A stretch of 64,000 bases of DNA from a virus. Shown piece after piece: positions 9,582 to 51,145 of the stretch (the first letter of the stretch is position 1; each line of letters starts with the position of its first letter). The translations under genes were made by a program, and so were the position numbers. Below the pieces are notes generated by a model. That model saw only the letters and a program-made list of their open reading frames with translations. It was not told where the DNA came from and did not search any database. Where the stretch lies: positions 1 to 64,000 of the IMG/VR virus record IMGVR_UViG_3300009103_002187. One strand, 5' to 3'.

Positions 9582-9808
9582 CCCTTGAATTCAATCTCCT
9601 GAATTGTTGTTCCACAATTCGAACATGTTCCCTCGCTAATTTCAGAATATATTTGTAGCACTGTTTGAATATCATCAATCTTTTTAGAAAAAACAAAAAA
9701 ATCTTCAATCGTCAACCTTAAAATAACACTGTTAACGTCAATATAAATCTCTTGTGCTTTTACATCAAACTGCGCGTCATGAGGAAGATCCAGCATTCGA
9801 TCGGACAT
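9551..9808 (-). CDS. Small protein with a CxxC motif
   Basis: Starting at ATG 9808 (MSDRMLDLPHDAQF, GGGAGA upstream) this gives 85 residues. The longer in-frame version adds a Gln/Leu/Lys-rich leader that is only the shadow of the Lys/Ala-rich gene upstream. The protein is mostly beta/helix with a CSNCG pair near residue 64 and an acidic C-terminus (QLDDEDMN). One CxxC plus a later Cys might bind a metal, but the set is incomplete. It overlaps both neighbours by about 30 bp. No family recognised. Confidence 0.5.
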   Translation of the reverse strand: MSDRMLDLPHDAQFDVKAQEIYIDVNSVILRLTIEDFFVFSKKIDDIQTVLQIYSEISEGTCSNCGTTIQEIEFKGCQLDDEDMN

Positions 9809-10100
9809 TAGTAGACTTTCTCCCGGTAGACTTTTTCTTAGCAGTGGCAGATTTTGGCTTTGCCTTTGGCTTTGCCTTTTTTGGTGCAATCGCTGCATCT
9901 TTAATATCAGGCGCAGCAGATGAATCTGCTGCAACTTTTTTAGGTACAAATAGGTCAGAAACTTCCTCTTCGTTAGGAGGCGAAACCCCGATTTCAGCTA
10001 GCTGCTTTACAAGAGCATCGTAAGATTTAATGCCACCCGCGTCTATCCACGCCCTAGGATTAATTTTTCTTCTACCTATAAAAAACTTCCAACTTACCAT
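9777..10100 (-). CDS. Protein with Lys/Ala-rich histone-like tail
   Basis: This 107-residue protein has an N-terminal folded region of about 60 residues (MVSWKFFIGRRKINPRAW, then a helix ending LAEIGVSPPNEEEV) and a low-complexity tail rich in Lys, Ala and Pro (APKKAKPKAKPKSATAKKKS). Such tails resemble histone H1 C-termini and usually bind nucleic acid non-specifically; that role is inferred. A minus-strand TATAAT about 35 bp upstream of the start suggests this may be the first gene of the 10.1-8.1 kb operon that contains the ligase. Confidence 0.6.
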   Translation of the reverse strand: MVSWKFFIGRRKINPRAWIDAGGIKSYDALVKQLAEIGVSPPNEEEVSDLFVPKKVAADSSAAPDIKDAAIAPKKAKPKAKPKSATAKKKSTGRKSTNVRSNAGSSS

Positions 10101-10144
10101 AGCTCAACTCCAATAAGATCTCTTATTATAGGTATCTCAAAATA

Positions 10145-10432
10145 CTAGCTTAAGTCACTATTAAAAATAACTTCAGAAACTGCATCTTGAAAAAGAGGGT
10201 TGGACGCGATCTTCTTTATTTCTGATCTAGAAATGTTCTTACAACCATTAGAACGACAAAGATTTAGCGCAATCTTATGCATTGCCTTTAGAAAGACGTT
10301 TCTAGCTGTTGCATGATTCATCTTAAAGCCCTCCTCGGTCATTAGTAGGGCGATAGATCGATAATCCATTCCCCCTAGATCAGCCACTGTTGCATATCCA
10401 TTTTCAGCCTTATAGCCTTTGGGCATTGACAT
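10145..10432 (-). CDS. Sigma region 4.2-like HTH protein
   Basis: This 95-residue protein contains DYRSIALLMTEEGFKMNHAT followed by ARNVFLKAMHKIA, which fits the helix-turn-helix of sigma region 4.2 (IA..L..S..TVR....RAL.K(I/L)). Its start overlaps the stop of the sigma factor gene as TAATG, so the two are almost certainly translationally coupled. The upstream sigma ends right after region 4.1, so this ORF supplies what looks like the missing -35-recognition helix. A C-terminal extension of about 45 residues (CRSNGCKNISRSEIKK) is extra. It could instead be an independent small regulator; the split-sigma reading is inference. Confidence 0.6.
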   Translation of the reverse strand: MSMPKGYKAENGYATVADLGGMDYRSIALLMTEEGFKMNHATARNVFLKAMHKIALNLCRSNGCKNISRSEIKKIASNPLFQDAVSEVIFNSDLS

Positions 10433-11199
10433 TATTCATTCTCCTCGGCGAGCATTTGAAGATCAAGCAGCTCTTGTTGTGTAATTGGAAATTTTTCGTT
10501 ATCCGTTTCAACCTCTGTTATTCCAAAGCGCAATCGAACAATTTTCTCTTCCCTTACTGTTAGTGAGCCAAAAGAACTTCTAACAGCTGCAGCAATTTTT
10601 TCTTTATCAATCATTACTTCAGGATCAACAAATCGATTATCTGGAATCAAATTTTCAAGCATACCACCACCATCTTCACCAATCGGTGTGCTCAAAGAAG
10701 TAGTAAACTTGGGTGCATTTATGATATCAATAACGATATTTTCAGAAACATCCAACAATTCAGCAATTTCCACTGAGGTTGGCTTTGCTCCGAAGTGCTC
10801 TTCATACTCTTCGATCAGCGAAGAGATTTTTGAAATCAACCCTCGAGCATGAGAGGGAATTCTAATCGTAGTCGAATTTGATGAAACATGCCTACGAACT
10901 GATTGTCTAATCCACCAAGTTGCGTATGTTGAAAATCTAAACCCACGCCGCCAATCAAACTTTTCTACTGCTTTCATTAGACCAATATTAGATTCTTGGA
11001 TAAGATCAGATAGATCACATCCAAAGTATTGGTACTTTTTGGCAATGCTTACAGCGAGCCGCAGATTTGATTCAATCATAATCTGGCGAGCAAGGTTATC
11101 ACCTTTCTCAATTCTTTGGGAGAGTGATATCTCCTCTTCACGTGTTAGCAACTTTCGCCTAGAAACATCTTTAAAATAATGATCTAGAATATTTGACAT
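10432..11199 (-). CDS. Sigma-70-family RNA polymerase sigma factor lacking region 4.2
   Basis: This 255-residue factor would direct host RNA polymerase to phage promoters. Region 1.2 (YFKDVSRRKLLTREEEISLS), region 2 (SNLRLAVSIAKKY, DLIQESNIGLMKAVEKFDW, RFSTYATWWIRQSV), region 3 (EEHFGAKPTSVEIAELLDVS) and region 4.1 (LTVREEKIVRLRFGI) appear in normal order. The protein then ends with ITQQELLDLQMLAEENE, without the region 4.2 helix-turn-helix. The next ORF, joined by a TAATG overlap, has such a helix. The start at 11199 is supported by GGGAG. A strong hairpin lies between this gene and hsp20 upstream. Confidence 0.9.
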   Translation of the reverse strand: MSNILDHYFKDVSRRKLLTREEEISLSQRIEKGDNLARQIMIESNLRLAVSIAKKYQYFGCDLSDLIQESNIGLMKAVEKFDWRRGFRFSTYATWWIRQSVRRHVSSNSTTIRIPSHARGLISKISSLIEEYEEHFGAKPTSVEIAELLDVSENIVIDIINAPKFTTSLSTPIGEDGGGMLENLIPDNRFVDPEVMIDKEKIAAAVRSSFGSLTVREEKIVRLRFGITEVETDNEKFPITQQELLDLQMLAEENE

Positions 11200-11222: not shown

Positions 11223-11258
11223 GCGACGCTTGGGTACGACATTGTACCCAAGCGTCGC
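11223..11258 (-). terminator. 15-bp perfect hairpin between hsp20 and sigma gene
   Basis: The arms at 11223-11237 and 11244-11258 pair perfectly over 15 bp around a 6-nt loop (GACATT). On the minus strand the hairpin follows the hsp20 stop within about 10 bp and is followed by TTAATTTTAAT, a moderately U-rich tract. This fits a rho-independent terminator for hsp20, possibly leaky. An RNA-processing or mRNA-stabilising role is possible because the stem is unusually long. Confidence 0.7.
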
Positions 11259-11843: not shown

Positions 11844-12101
11844 TTAACGTTGATTATGAGAATTTCGACGATGTGGACGATTTGGAAATCGTTTCTTCAG
11901 ATATTCTTCGTGTGCAATCTTTCGATTTTTACGCCAAACAACTTCTCGCTGGAGATAACAAAATTCGACTTCTAGGTTTGATGAATTATTTCCACGCTTA
12001 GACCGATCTTCAATCCTTGATTTCAAAGTTCTAAGATGTCGATGAAGTTCTTCATCACTAAGGGTTTTAAGCTTGTCATCATTGGTCACACGAAAAGACA
12101 T
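11844..12101 (-). CDS. Small basic hypothetical protein
   Basis: This 85-residue, Arg/Lys/Glu-rich, mostly helical protein contains LSDEELHRHLRTLKSRIEDR and a C-terminal KKRFPNRPHRRNSHNQR tail. The start has GGAG eleven bases upstream, and an extended -10 promoter-like TGGTATAAT sits about 58 bp upstream. The coiled, basic character suggests an RNA-, DNA- or protein-binding accessory factor, but no family is recognised. Confidence 0.55.
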   Translation of the reverse strand: MSFRVTNDDKLKTLSDEELHRHLRTLKSRIEDRSKRGNNSSNLEVEFCYLQREVVWRKNRKIAHEEYLKKRFPNRPHRRNSHNQR

Positions 12102-12158: not shown

Positions 12159-12167
12159 ATTATACCA
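12159..12167 (-). promoter_or_regulatory. Extended -10 promoter candidate
   Basis: On the minus strand this reads TGGTATAAT, a perfect extended -10 element preceded by GT. No clear TTGACA is present 17 bp upstream, as is common for extended -10 promoters. Transcription would start near 12152 and give a leader of about 50 nt for the 85-aa gene. The same ATGTGGTATAAT string occurs upstream of the gene at 26673-27644. Confidence 0.5.
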
Positions 12168-12194
12168 CATAACGTAGCAGTGTACACGAATTGC

Positions 12195-14246: not shown

Positions 14247-16036
<1,790 letters not shown>

Positions 16037-36111: not shown

Positions 36112-36815
36112 TACGCACCGCCGCCGGCAGGGCCGGCGCCAGCGGCAAGAGGTGTGGCCCCTGGATCAGGATCATGATCAATTTGCTCGGTGCCGTAATC
36201 AAGACGAAGCTTCTCCTCGAACTCATCAGAAACTTCAAGTCCGTACTTGTTAGTCAGAAACTCTGTCGTCCTTTGAATGATTACTGAGGGTATATCCAGA
36301 AGATTATCATAATTTGTGATCAGGTTGTTGACGTTCTCAGTAAAGCTTGAGATGTTAAGGGGCGCTCTCACACCGCCCACATCTACATCAGCTTCAGCAG
36401 GTTCATCTCGCCCAGAGTTATCAACGGTCTTGCTCACCTCAAATCCGGCACCAGAAATCTGTCCCACCATCTTTTGAAGCTCAGCCTCGGGATCATCTTC
36501 AACAGCCTCCTCACCTTCCTCATCCCCCTCAGCCTCAGGATCATCCTCGACGGGATCCTCTTCACCCTCAGCGTCTTCTTTTTCCTCATCCTCAGGCGCC
36601 TCAAAGAGAAAATTCATCACCTTCTGAAGCTTGAATGATTCACCGGTAATTCCTGCTTTCTCATAGTCAATCTGCTCAATGGACCCTTCTTCGTAGGACG
36701 TTAACAACGCATCGATCTGATCATCAAGTGAGGTGGAGGATCGATTGGCACCTTCAGAGAGCACACGCATCTCTTCATTAATCAAGCCTCTAAGAGTATG
36801 TCTGGAGAGCTTCAT
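36111..36815 (-). CDS. Acidic tagged protein (LINEE N-terminus)
   Basis: This 234-residue protein begins MKLSRHTLRGLINEEMRVLS, a clear copy of the recurring N-terminal motif (LI-x-E-E). A strongly acidic, disordered stretch (EDEEKEDAEGEEDPVEDDPE) is followed by a folded C-terminal part (about 150-210) and a Gly/Pro/Ala tail. Composition fits phage scaffolding or internal-head proteins. AAGGA precedes the start, and it is followed by the ribbon-helix-helix gene through TAGTG overlap. Confidence 0.6.
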   Translation of the reverse strand: MKLSRHTLRGLINEEMRVLSEGANRSSTSLDDQIDALLTSYEEGSIEQIDYEKAGITGESFKLQKVMNFLFEAPEDEEKEDAEGEEDPVEDDPEAEGDEEGEEAVEDDPEAELQKMVGQISGAGFEVSKTVDNSGRDEPAEADVDVGGVRAPLNISSFTENVNNLITNYDNLLDIPSVIIQRTTEFLTNKYGLEVSDEFEEKLRLDYGTEQIDHDPDPGATPLAAGAGPAGGGA

Positions 36816-45673: not shown

Positions 45674-46585
45674 TTAATCAAGAATGTGAGCAGAGTTTAA
45701 GTTAAATCTCATTCGTACAACATCATTTTCTTGACTTAGTTGAAACTCATCATATACACATTTGGTTAAATAGTACAGGAACTTTAAATCAGTCTTTAAT
45801 TTATTTTTTACATCTGTTGATCTTAATACAAAATGCATATCAAGAATGTTATCTCGATAAACACCTTGAATAAATGAGATACACGAATCATCTGCGTATA
45901 CAAACCTTCTAGAAGAAAGATTTTGTATTAGATTATACTCATTCTTTCCTGACCGCTCGTCCCTAATCTTTTCCAAAAATCTGGTAATAATTTCACGATA
46001 ATACTCTTTTTCGCCCTGCGTTTCAAGAACACTCTCATCTATCTCTGAAAATGTTCCATCATCATAAAATGTAAACGTTATTGGTGTGGCTTCATTTCTA
46101 GGGCAGCTATCAGCAAAACGCTGAATAAATCTTGAAATATCAGACAATGATAGCATCTCGAGCTTATCAAGATAGCTTACAACCTTTTTAGCATTCTCAT
46201 CTACTTCACCGTCAATTAGACAACACACGTTTGGTTGATACATCAATCGGGTAAATCTCCCATAAAAAAGTTCATACACTCGACGAAGAGATGTCAAATC
46301 TTGAAGCTCATCACCCCTTAGATTAAATCTTTTTTCAATTTCTGAAAAAGACGGCAATAAAAATATCATCCTATTATTTAGATCATACATTTCTTTTTGA
46401 TGATTTTCTCGATGTCTAAATTGATCACGACCGTAAAGATCAGCATATACCATCATTGACAAAGATGATCTATCTTGAATGTTCCATCGAAACTTGGTTA
46501 GCTTATGGATTTTGTTATAAAGTGAAGTTTTTCCAGAAAGATCTGGCCCTTCAAGAATTACCGTTGTAGACGGAAAACGTATCAT
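45674..46585 (-). CDS. P-loop nucleotide kinase fused to a thymidylate synthase-like C-terminus
   Basis: From ATG 46585 this is a 303-residue protein. Residues 9-21 hold VILEGPDLSGKTS, the Walker A of thymidylate/deoxynucleotide kinases. The C-terminal 90 residues (RFVYADDSCISFIQGVYRDN, MHFVLRSTDVKNKLKTDLKF, RFNLNSAHILD) recall the end of thymidylate synthase-type folds (SxD, NSAHI strand), though the catalytic Cys/His of ThyA are not visible. This may be a remnant or a substrate-binding module. ThyX is also encoded in the window, so the second fold would be redundant as an enzyme. Confidence 0.6.
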   Translation of the reverse strand: MIRFPSTTVILEGPDLSGKTSLYNKIHKLTKFRWNIQDRSSLSMMVYADLYGRDQFRHRENHQKEMYDLNNRMIFLLPSFSEIEKRFNLRGDELQDLTSLRRVYELFYGRFTRLMYQPNVCCLIDGEVDENAKKVVSYLDKLEMLSLSDISRFIQRFADSCPRNEATPITFTFYDDGTFSEIDESVLETQGEKEYYREIITRFLEKIRDERSGKNEYNLIQNLSSRRFVYADDSCISFIQGVYRDNILDMHFVLRSTDVKNKLKTDLKFLYYLTKCVYDEFQLSQENDVVRMRFNLNSAHILD

Positions 46586-47605: not shown

Positions 47606-50600
47606 TTACACAACAACAGGCTTCATTTTTGCACCTGATGAAGAGGCACCCCAGTTCGGATCATTCGCAGCATCAATCATCCAAAGTGTATATAACGTCG
47701 CATCTCTAGGAAGAAAGCCCCAGACACGAAGCCAGGTTGAATTATTATCACTGTCAATCATTTTAAGTCGATAGAATTTCTTACCCTTCTTAGTTCTCTT
47801 CTCAACAATTTCTTGAATACAGCCCCAGACAATTCCTCTCTGACTACCTGACAATGTGGTGATTGGTGGAATGTCAGCTTTTTCAAGCTTTTCCAAAACA
47901 TTATCAGGATAAATCAGATCTCTTGGTACTGTAGACGTGATATCTTGATAGTTGTTTACCTTTTCAGCCCTAGACCAGTCAATTGTGCCAGAAGATAGTT
48001 CAATTAACTGAGGAATAATCGGAGATGCTCCCATCTTCTTTGCTTTTCTCATCGTCATTCCAAACTTACTTTTTCGAAGATTGTCATAATTTTCAAGAAT
48101 AATTTCATAAATTTGCTTATGATTTTCAATCAATCCCGATGACATTTCTTCTAAAGATCCAAATGCTTCAATCTTGCAAAGTGACTCAAAACATCGCTTG
48201 TTCATCTTAGAATGTTTCCACACACCGTCGCTGTCATACAAGAGATTATCAAGATTTTTATATGGTCGCATCTTCATAATTTCACTAACAGCGGTGTCAC
48301 CGACACCCTTTACTGCGGTCAGAGGGGGAACAAACGCTTCAATTTCATCAGAATACTCCCATGAAATGCCCGAATAATTGATATCGGCTGGCGCAAGTTT
48401 ATATCCCATTTGCTTAATTTCACCAATTGTCTTAGACAATCCCTTCGGATTATTATTTTCAGATTGAAGAATTGTTGCCAACCACTCCTTTTCATAATGT
48501 GTGTGAAGCCAAGCTGCATAATACGAATCAATTGCGTAAGCAACAGCGTGTGATTTATTAAAGCCATACACAGAAAAGAATTCAATTCGATCAAATAGGC
48601 TGTGCAGCTTATCTTCAGGCAAGCTGTGAAGCTTCTTAGCACCTTCGACAAATTTCTCTCTTAGGGCATCTCGCTCTGCACCTTTCTTCCCAATGGTATC
48701 CAGCGATTTTTTAACAAGCGTCTTGCGCATCTTGTCAGACTCACCGGGAGTAAATCCAGCAAGCTTTTGTGCCAGAAGCATAAACTGTTCCTGAAAAGTG
48801 ATATGACCGAATGTCGGGCCCAAAATTTCTTCAATGATTGGATGATCATACTTGATCTGATCGGCTCTTCGCTTATCATTCACATACTTCTTGTGAACAT
48901 TCGCTCGAAGAGGCCCTGGACGATAAATCGCAGTCAAAGCAGCAAGCTCTTCAATAGAAGACGGCTTAGCATCTTCACAGAATCTTCTTGCTCCTTCTGC
49001 AGTAAATTGAAATACTCCCGTCTTTCTTCGCTGGTGATAGACATGCTCCCATACTTTACTATCGTCTAGAGTATTATAGCGACAATTGATATTATCATCA
49101 AAAAATGTTTTTATTTCTTGAAATGCTGGATTTTCATTTCCCTGCTTCTTTAAAATCCTGCCAATACAATTTTCCACATCTTTTAGCAGGGTCAGACCGA
49201 GAAAATCAAACTTAATAAATCCATTATCTTCTAGATTTCTAAAGTTCATGCCTTCAGTCCACGGTGTCTGAAGTTCACCTCTGACGCCCACTAGCGGCAT
49301 TGACTTTTCAAGGTCTTCAGCAGGCGCAATAATTACTCCTCCAGCATGTCTACCAATACTTCTATTCTGCATGAATAGAGACTCAATGTGATCCTTGACC
49401 TTTGGATATTTTTCCATAAACTCACGATAACGCTTAGAGTGAGTCATGCAATCCTCGTGTTTCAAAACAAAAACAGACTTTTCAGTATTTTCATCTTTGA
49501 CCTGGGGCATTACCTCAAACTGCAGGGGACCAGTAACAGCATTTACCTCATCAAAAGGAACATCATAAAATTTAGAAATATCTTTGACAAGTGACTTTAG
49601 CTTTAACGTGTTGAAATTTGAAACAGGAATTACAGCATCATCACCGTAAAGTTCTCGAGCTGCATCAATTAGAGCATCTCGATCCCCAGCATCAGAATCA
49701 ATATCGGGCCAGCTAGTTCGATGCCGTCCCAAAAACCGATCCCATAGAAGACCGTATGGAAGTGGATCGAGCTGTGTAATTCCCAAAAGATAATTTACAA
49801 TACTTCCTCCACCAGATCCTCGAGCAGGCCCAAAAAGAGTTCGATCTTCCGCTTTGTGAAAAACCTGATACATCGTTAGGAAATAATTTTCAAATCCCAA
49901 ATATTTGATATCAGCAAGTTCAGTCTTGGCCCTAGATACATACTCATCATTATCAACCAAGTCCTCCTTAACTAGCCCTTCCTTGACGAGATCTAAGAGC
50001 TGTTGAAAAGCAGTTTTCTTTGGAGTGTTGAAATTTGGAAGCTTTACCGATTGATCAATCCAGGTATCTTCGCACATCTCCCAAGCAATATCATGGGTCC
50101 GCTCAATTGCGTCACGAACTCTTTCTTGCGTCCCATTGTAAAAGTCATGCTTATCATAATGAAGCATATACTCATCCCACATCTGAGAAGCATTTTTAGG
50201 ATATAATTCACATTTTAGATCATCGAATTCGGGCAACGGAGAAACTGACTTTCCCATCCATCCTAGCTTCTTATAAAGCTCACGAGCTTCCCATTTATTT
50301 GGGCCGTAATAGTGAGAATCAGCAGTTGCGATTAGAGGAATTCCAGTTGTTTCTGAAAGAGAAAGCAAGTGCTTGTTGACAGAGTGCTGTGCATTAAGCT
50401 TATTGAATTGAAGCTCAAGAAAGAAATTTTCAACCCCTACAGCGTCAACAAAACGGTCTGTTATATTTGACAAAGTCAATTGGATCTCCTCAAAAGAGGC
50501 ACCTGATGCCTCGCCCCGAAGAACTCTATTTGACATGATCCCACCTAAGCACGCGGTAGAAACAATCAATCCTTCACCGTGCTGCTTAAGCATCTCAAAG

Positions 50601-51145
50601 TCAATTCGAGGAAACCGATAAAACCCATGTTTATAGGACTTCTTAATTAGAGTAAAAAGGTTGCCTAACCCCGTCCGATTCTTAGCAACTACAACAAGAT
50701 GATATCTTCGCTTCCAGTCATCTTTGTCCACGTCAATAGTCTTAGTTTCTTCCTCATTTTCAATAGTATGGCCAGCTGCAACTACGTCTTCATCAGCATC
50801 AATATCTGTCTTCTCTTTGGCTTTCTTTTCAGACCTTGCAGCTTTTACTGCCTCCCGATGATTATTGTAATCAATCCTCCACTGACTAAGAGATGGAACA
50901 AAATAAAATTCACACCCATAAATCTGCCGATATTTCTGGCCTGATTCCTGAACTTTCTTGGCATGCTTATACGCATGTGCCAGTCCAGATCCATTCCCAT
51001 GATCAGTTAGCGCCAACGCATCCATTTCGTTTGAAAGAACGAAATCAATGTGATCAGCGGGATATCCCAAGCCATCAAAAACTGAAAAACCTGAATGTGC
51101 GTGCAACCCGACAAAGCGCCGAGGTGGCTTGATAATCTTACTCAT
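47606..51145 (-). CDS. dnaE: DNA polymerase III alpha-type replicative polymerase
   Basis: This 1179-residue C-family polymerase replicates the phage genome. An N-terminal PHP domain (GLHAHSGFS at about 13; LTDHGNGSG at about 45) is followed by the palm motifs GPARGSGGGSIVNYLLGIT and PDIDSDAGD (about 478-486), which hold the catalytic Asp residues. FNKSHAVAYAI (about 860) lies in the fingers, and a C-terminal OB-like region follows. An insertion of about 50 acidic/basic residues interrupts the PHP domain near 100-150. Length matches bacterial DnaE. Most T4-like phages use family B enzymes, so a DnaE type is distinctive. AAGGTGAG precedes the start. Confidence 0.95.
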   Translation of the reverse strand: MSKIIKPPRRFVGLHAHSGFSVFDGLGYPADHIDFVLSNEMDALALTDHGNGSGLAHAYKHAKKVQESGQKYRQIYGCEFYFVPSLSQWRIDYNNHREAVKAARSEKKAKEKTDIDADEDVVAAGHTIENEEETKTIDVDKDDWKRRYHLVVVAKNRTGLGNLFTLIKKSYKHGFYRFPRIDFEMLKQHGEGLIVSTACLGGIMSNRVLRGEASGASFEEIQLTLSNITDRFVDAVGVENFFLELQFNKLNAQHSVNKHLLSLSETTGIPLIATADSHYYGPNKWEARELYKKLGWMGKSVSPLPEFDDLKCELYPKNASQMWDEYMLHYDKHDFYNGTQERVRDAIERTHDIAWEMCEDTWIDQSVKLPNFNTPKKTAFQQLLDLVKEGLVKEDLVDNDEYVSRAKTELADIKYLGFENYFLTMYQVFHKAEDRTLFGPARGSGGGSIVNYLLGITQLDPLPYGLLWDRFLGRHRTSWPDIDSDAGDRDALIDAARELYGDDAVIPVSNFNTLKLKSLVKDISKFYDVPFDEVNAVTGPLQFEVMPQVKDENTEKSVFVLKHEDCMTHSKRYREFMEKYPKVKDHIESLFMQNRSIGRHAGGVIIAPAEDLEKSMPLVGVRGELQTPWTEGMNFRNLEDNGFIKFDFLGLTLLKDVENCIGRILKKQGNENPAFQEIKTFFDDNINCRYNTLDDSKVWEHVYHQRRKTGVFQFTAEGARRFCEDAKPSSIEELAALTAIYRPGPLRANVHKKYVNDKRRADQIKYDHPIIEEILGPTFGHITFQEQFMLLAQKLAGFTPGESDKMRKTLVKKSLDTIGKKGAERDALREKFVEGAKKLHSLPEDKLHSLFDRIEFFSVYGFNKSHAVAYAIDSYYAAWLHTHYEKEWLATILQSENNNPKGLSKTIGEIKQMGYKLAPADINYSGISWEYSDEIEAFVPPLTAVKGVGDTAVSEIMKMRPYKNLDNLLYDSDGVWKHSKMNKRCFESLCKIEAFGSLEEMSSGLIENHKQIYEIILENYDNLRKSKFGMTMRKAKKMGASPIIPQLIELSSGTIDWSRAEKVNNYQDITSTVPRDLIYPDNVLEKLEKADIPPITTLSGSQRGIVWGCIQEIVEKRTKKGKKFYRLKMIDSDNNSTWLRVWGFLPRDATLYTLWMIDAANDPNWGASSSGAKMKPVVV

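Follow-up and report, generated by a model that had tools for sequence, protein, structure and literature searches.

Domain 4 of sigma factors is usually regarded as a single folding unit. The gp55 protein of phage T4 is not known to have a region 4. Together with gp33, which neither resembles sigma discernibly in sequence nor recognises DNA, it has been called a split sigma (PMC2988020). The T4 pair is a phage two-protein replacement for sigma on the host RNA polymerase, with the small second protein at the sigma 4/beta flap site (PMC2988020, PMC7892883), and T4 late transcription requires the gp45 clamp. A cellular two-subunit sigma, SigO-RsoA of Bacillus subtilis, places the functions of domains 2 and 4 on separate proteins, the break lying between these two domains (PMC8103513). 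Large phages of jumbo group 2, which use the host RNA polymerase, possess a stand-alone sigma HTH, described as a minimal sigma or ancestral remnant and not as the half lacking from a truncated sigma beside it (PMC7824862); jumbo phages with this single-HTH sigma plus a gp33 orthologue are also described (PMC7824862). In none of these systems does the break fall within domain 4 while the two halves stay adjacent, and a search of the open-access literature found no description of a sigma split between regions 4.1 and 4.2.

The locus described here quite probably encodes such a factor, a two-piece sigma of the sigma70 type consisting of a sigma body (ORF1) and a separate region 4.2 subunit (ORF2). 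Like the T4 pair it comes from a phage, and like SigO-RsoA it would divide sigma functions between two proteins. In contrast to the highly diverged gp55, ORF1 is close to RpoD over regions 1.2-4.1, and in contrast to gp33, whose sequence shows no likeness to sigma, ORF2 carries a conserved HTH. The pair differs from SigO-RsoA in that the break separates 4.1 from 4.2 within sigma 4 and that the sigma is RpoD-like, with regions 1.2 and 3. The jumbo-phage single-HTH sigma is set apart from ORF2 by the way it is described.

The sigma body and the adjoining reading frame

The window is the whole stretch of DNA that was analysed, 64,000 nucleotides from an IMG/VR virus record (IMGVR_UViG_3300009103_002187, positions 1 to 64,000). 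The record behind it has 79,764 bases and a single sigma of the split family. The pair lies at 10145-11199 on the minus strand, where an earlier note made from the sequence had correctly placed it:

10432..11199, minus strand: ORF1, sigma body of 255 aa with regions 1.2, 2, 3, the 3.2 linker and 4.1
11095..11187, minus strand: ORF1 sigma region 1.2 (PF00140, residues 5-35)
10873..11079, minus strand: ORF1 sigma region 2, core binding and -10 recognition (PF04542, residues 41-109)
10618..10836, minus strand: ORF1 sigma region 3 (PF04539, residues 122-194)
10519..10569, minus strand: ORF1 region 4.1 remnant LTVREEKIVRLRFGI (PF04545 positions 3-18 of 50; family alignment)
10441..10446, minus strand: GAGGAG, Shine-Dalgarno of ORF2, within the sigma 3′ end (from the sequence)
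10145..10432, minus strand: ORF2, 95 aa, with a region 4.2-like HTH and a helical tail, starting inside the sigma stop codon (TAATG)

Judged from its sequence, ORF1 is an RpoD-like body of the sigma70 family without region 4.2 in its chain. Pfam regions 1.2, 2 and 3 are found in one chain, all above their cut-offs. The region 4 match (PF04545) is restricted to residues 211-227 and stays below threshold; it takes in positions 3-18 of 50 only, and the region 4.2 HTH is absent from the chain. In a phmmer comparison with the solved SigA and RpoD structures in the PDB (E about 1e-52 to SigA) the match breaks off near residue 232, following LTVREEKIVRLRFGI, and the protein stops roughly 30 residues beyond the RLRFG motif of region 4.1. 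ORF1 thus shares regions 1.2-4.1 with RpoD/SigA sigmas and lacks their region 4.2, and the same sigma architecture, ending before 4.2, that the earlier note had read from the letters is confirmed by Pfam and phmmer. In 76/76 homologues the C-terminal end falls 6-36 residues past the 4.1 motif. At the junction, GAATAATG, the sigma TAA and the ORF2 ATG overlap by one base, so that the second ORF does begin in the sigma stop codon, as had been claimed.

IMG/VR was scanned with both proteins, which gave 95 ORF2 loci including the window's own and overlapping views of some contigs. Non-redundant pairs of sigma and ORF2 occur on 76 IMG/VR contigs, with ORF2 35-61% identical to that of the window. 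At least 76 virus contigs, which represent a large family of uncultured phages, therefore share the cut. That a break between 4.1 and 4.2 is so widespread and persists among widely diverged sequences would mean that reading of the -35 element is detachable from core binding.

ORF2 as a candidate region 4.2 subunit

In the proposed mechanism the 255-aa sigma body would bind the host RNA polymerase and read the -10 box through regions 1.2-4.1, and the HTH of the 95-aa ORF2 would make sigma domain 4 complete at the beta flap and read a -35 element. Both proteins would be translated from one mRNA by coupled initiation, given the overlapping stop and start codons and the separate Shine-Dalgarno of ORF2, and would then assemble non-covalently. 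No gene for RNA polymerase beta was found in nine contigs searched, so the host polymerase is presumably used. Exactly one sigma body is present on 10 of the 11 virus contigs searched, the fragment G011 having none. Regulation of promoter choice through the second subunit, as proposed in the earlier note, is plausible.

The AlphaFold2 model of ORF2 alone has two helices (residues 24-33 and 40-61) in a helix-turn-helix-like arrangement followed by tail helices at 69-76 and 79-92. The HTH and the extra tail noticed earlier are thus both seen in the model, the tail being about 35 residues long and not 45.

10334..10363, minus strand: first HTH helix of ORF2, residues 24-33 (AlphaFold2 model)
10250..10315, minus strand: putative recognition helix of ORF2, residues 40-61, with MNHATARN at its start (AlphaFold2 model, conservation)
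10157..10228, minus strand: conserved helical tail of ORF2, residues 69-92, consensus DPRFQ (AlphaFold2 model, conservation)

Across 80 sequences the best conserved stretch of ORF2 is GYKMNH(S/A)TARN, whose residues N39, H40, T42, R44 and N45 sit where the recognition helix begins. Y13, M31, R44 and N45 are invariant (R44 and N45 in 80/80 sequences).

The window's ORF2 matches no Pfam or PHROG family, and no ORF2 was found in 50,697 phage records at the sensitivity tested, where matches at a permissive limit of E 10 were chance-like. ORF2 is thus a gene family outside Pfam, PHROGs and all the phage isolate records searched. Its direct sequence likeness to region 4.2 is weak. Of 60 members, six were matched weakly by the Pfam family Sigma70_r4_2, with E 0.003 at best, and seven at similar E by a different DNA-binding family, and the hhalign alignment of ORF2 ATARNVFLKAMHKI to region 4.2 ERIRQIEAKALRKL was non-significant (probability 0.3%). 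Foldseek and VIA searches with the ORF2 model by itself found nothing significant in the PDB or BFVD, and a profile HMM of ORF2 gave only chance-like matches to the PDB, so the claim about its fold rests on a model of the pair in frame.

This model was made from a relative, L012, in which the two ORFs abut in frame (sigma 62% and ORF2 61% identical to the window). AlphaFold2 was run on the pair as one artificial chain in which the stop codon was treated as a residue. From the HTH on, the ORF2 part has a pLDDT of 91-98. The model matches SigA with a Foldseek E of 4e-15 and superposes on sigma-S and SigA across regions 1.2-4.2. On sigma-S 5ipl (VIA) the Z score is 19.9 with 269 residues aligned and an rmsd of 9.7 over all domains; model residues 2-316 lie on chain residues 55-326, and the aligned part takes in the ORF2 helices. 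A whole-chain rmsd of about 9 A means that domain positions differ between the model and sigma.

A natural counterpart of the artificial chain exists. Among the 84,980 genomes of bacteria and archaea that were scanned, relatives turned up in two MAG contigs only. One (L164) has a split pair, and the other, a Flavobacteriales contig (L163), encodes a natural fusion of 357 aa in which the sigma is followed by GKYVTMTDGLDYRTIAKIMHQYGWPMNHATARNVL. In this one case the ORF2 sequence stands at the sigma C-terminus, exactly in the place of region 4.2; with the fusion as query no further one was found. The assignment of ORF2 to region 4.2 is drawn from the fusion and the in-frame model, sequence comparison being suggestive. 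On these grounds it is most likely that region 4.2 is provided in trans by ORF2.

Promoter-like elements and the comparison with gp33

The 502 regions upstream of genes of the split-sigma family were scanned for promoter pairs. KTGHAA-N16..18-TATAAT was found 38 times against 0.33 in shuffles, with a spacer of 17 in 32 of them, and TTGACA-N16..18-TATAAT and the KTGHCA forms occurred in none of the 502 regions. A motif-free count of pairs recovers the same element, GTGYAA-N17-TATAAT. In 32 of 76 genomes it is present in the 900 nt before the sigma gene (antisense strand 1). This class is the likely target of the two-piece factor, which may be the sigma that reads it. In the window a site of the class precedes the DnaE-like polymerase gene (51198), which we take to be a DNA polymerase III alpha subunit of the DnaE type (47606-51145). 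Near the window's sigma, promoters of the sigma70 consensus are no more frequent than chance predicts, with 21 counted against an expectation of 21.1. Two further sites are promoter-like:

12159..12188, minus strand: GTGTA...GTGGTATAAT, promoter-like site upstream of the small gene o85, a variant of the GTGYAA-N17-TATAAT class (motif match)
10125..10130, minus strand: TATAAT, promoter-like site before the third gene, ORF3 (consensus match only)

In sigma70 the substitution R584A shifts the preference at -31 from C:G to A:T, while position -33 is influenced by E585 and R588 (PMC2613000). In the alignment register used, ORF2 H40 falls on R584 and R44 on R588, and the GTGYAA promoters have A at -31 and retain G at -33. 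The H40/R44 register thus appears to agree with the promoter bases, which is suggestive only. The GTGYAA class is missing in the distant clade G020 and in G022; G020 keeps the MNHATARN helix though it is without this promoter class, so that a link from helix to promoter is tentative.

A different promoter-like pair, TTTAG-N15-TGATATTCT, occurs in G020 (L249-L261). Of 44 upstream regions in the window, 8 have an AT-rich ATAATTA with no obvious -35, where 1.5 would be expected; late-type genes are an example, and the counterparts of the motif in relatives are ATAGTTA or TATTTAA. It is possibly a late promoter.

The alternative that fares best takes ORF2 as a co-activator like T4 gp33, which would occupy the beta flap instead of sigma domain 4 without reading DNA and bridge to another factor such as a sliding clamp or ORF3:

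9777..10100, minus strand: ORF3, third gene of the conserved block, with a basic low-complexity tail (downstream of ORF2 in 69/79 loci)

The small conserved ORF3 protein combines an RR(K/R) motif with a Lys/Pro-rich tail and has no Pfam or PHROG match. That it nearly always adjoins ORF2 would fit such a bridge, as would the conserved extra helical tail of ORF2 and its weak likeness to region 4.2, and T4 gp55/gp33 has itself been described as a split sigma in which gp33 is a mimic of sigma 4 (PMC2988020). Against this stand the start of the recognition helix as the most conserved part of ORF2 (R44 and N45), the retention of region 4.1 by the sigma body, unlike gp55, and the strictly spaced -35-like element of the promoters. 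We consider the co-activator unlikely and infer that the -35 element is read by ORF2.

Maintenance of the pair, a second lineage and neighbouring genes

A still lower probability is given to ORF2 as an independent HTH regulator (a repressor, an anti-sigma or an autoregulator) next to a sigma that works without region 4.2. The weak likeness of ORF2 to region 4.2 would suit it, and one locus, L141, has an ORF2 without a sigma, on a 38.6-kb contig fragment that holds no sigma of the split family. In 94 of the 95 IMG/VR-derived loci with an ORF2 homologue, however, a sigma lies upstream on the same strand, and both the fusion in the right order and the constant position of the sigma cut, 6-36 residues after the 4.1 motif, speak against a separate function. 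The near-universal adjacency, the fusion and the single-chain model likewise support the pairing of the two ORFs that had first been proposed by inference.

The frame of ORF2 relative to sigma is +2, +1 and 0 in 44, 16 and 16 of the 76 pairs, none of which is fused, and the gap between the genes runs from -56 to +1001 nt, most commonly -4 as ATGA. A Shine-Dalgarno sequence precedes ORF2 in 69 of the 76, where upstream positions would lead one to expect 5.9. In eight of nine close pairs most substitutions are synonymous (in L005/L006 the ORF2 differences are 42 against 7, mainly synonymous; L153/L156 is the sole nearly balanced pair). The frames, the gaps, the Shine-Dalgarno of ORF2 and the synonymous bias together indicate two separately translated proteins under purifying selection. 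A sequencing error, for which a check of the junction had been advised, is barely credible and refuted as a general explanation, as are a pseudogene and a single protein arising through programmed frameshifting or readthrough. An overlapping stop and start could be a recoding site in a single genome, but 76 independent pairs show every frame relation and varied gaps, with a Shine-Dalgarno before ORF2 and mainly synonymous change. The two-piece sigma would offer a naturally occurring system for testing, swapping and timing -10 and -35 recognition separately, and it suggests a stepwise redirection of the host polymerase by phages.

A second phage lineage (L025-L034, L038, L040, L067 and L071, with L041 having a longer start and L026 left out for its full-length sigma) has sigmas of 228-232 aa that end within a few residues of 4.1. 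No ORF2 was found nearby or on the contigs searched. Each of three large contigs of this lineage (166-168 kb) carries an unlinked Cys-rich protein with a weak region-4.2-like HTH match; the protein is missing from the smaller contigs, which are fragments. Its gene adjoins head-like genes in two of the three large contigs. Such proteins occur as follows, those of the second lineage having 116-146 aa where read:

L292, 1744-2184: Cys-rich protein of the second lineage
L293 (G002): Cys-rich protein of the second lineage
G003, 46102-46467: Cys-rich protein of the second lineage
G015, G018, G019, G022, G037, G038 (L289, L290, L291, L294-L297): split-sigma genomes with a Cys-rich 4.2 protein

The last line corresponds to six of 23 split-sigma genomes checked, in which ORF2 is accompanied by an unlinked Cys-rich protein with the region 4.2 HTH GPHTLQEIGDIFNVTRMRICQIEK (83-86 aa where read; best Pfam E about 1e-10). 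On four of these six contigs only one sigma body was seen. It is conceivable, though we rather doubt it, that different -35-reading subunits can be exchanged on one sigma body; a swapped 4.2 subunit would then act as a switch of promoter class during infection with the core-bound sigma unchanged.

In a tree of sigma bodies the split sequences cluster well beyond chance (2 changes against 20.9 when shuffled), and the truncated lineage groups with full-length sigmas. This position suggests that region 4.2 was lost from the sigma chain at least twice, separately. Given the long branches and the uncertain root, and with the fusion L163 standing beside the distant clade at the end of such a branch, the tree is compatible with either order of fission and fusion.

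Other features surround the pair:

11844..12101, minus strand: o85, small conserved gene upstream of sigma (homologue upstream in 61/79 loci)
11223..11258, minus strand: strong hairpin of 15 pairs with a T-poor tail, between hsp20 and the sigma start (from the sequence)

No informative family match was found for o85. The hairpin is possibly an attenuator or processing site that controls sigma expression. A small zinc-ribbon-like protein is part of the conserved block in 34 of 79 loci, and window positions 14247-15833 presumably encode a phage GroEL. Many window proteins share an N-terminal motif resembling MKLTRSxLRxLIxEE (for example the ORFs starting at 36815, 37200, 54950 and 56594), which is possibly a tag for targeting to the virion or capsid.
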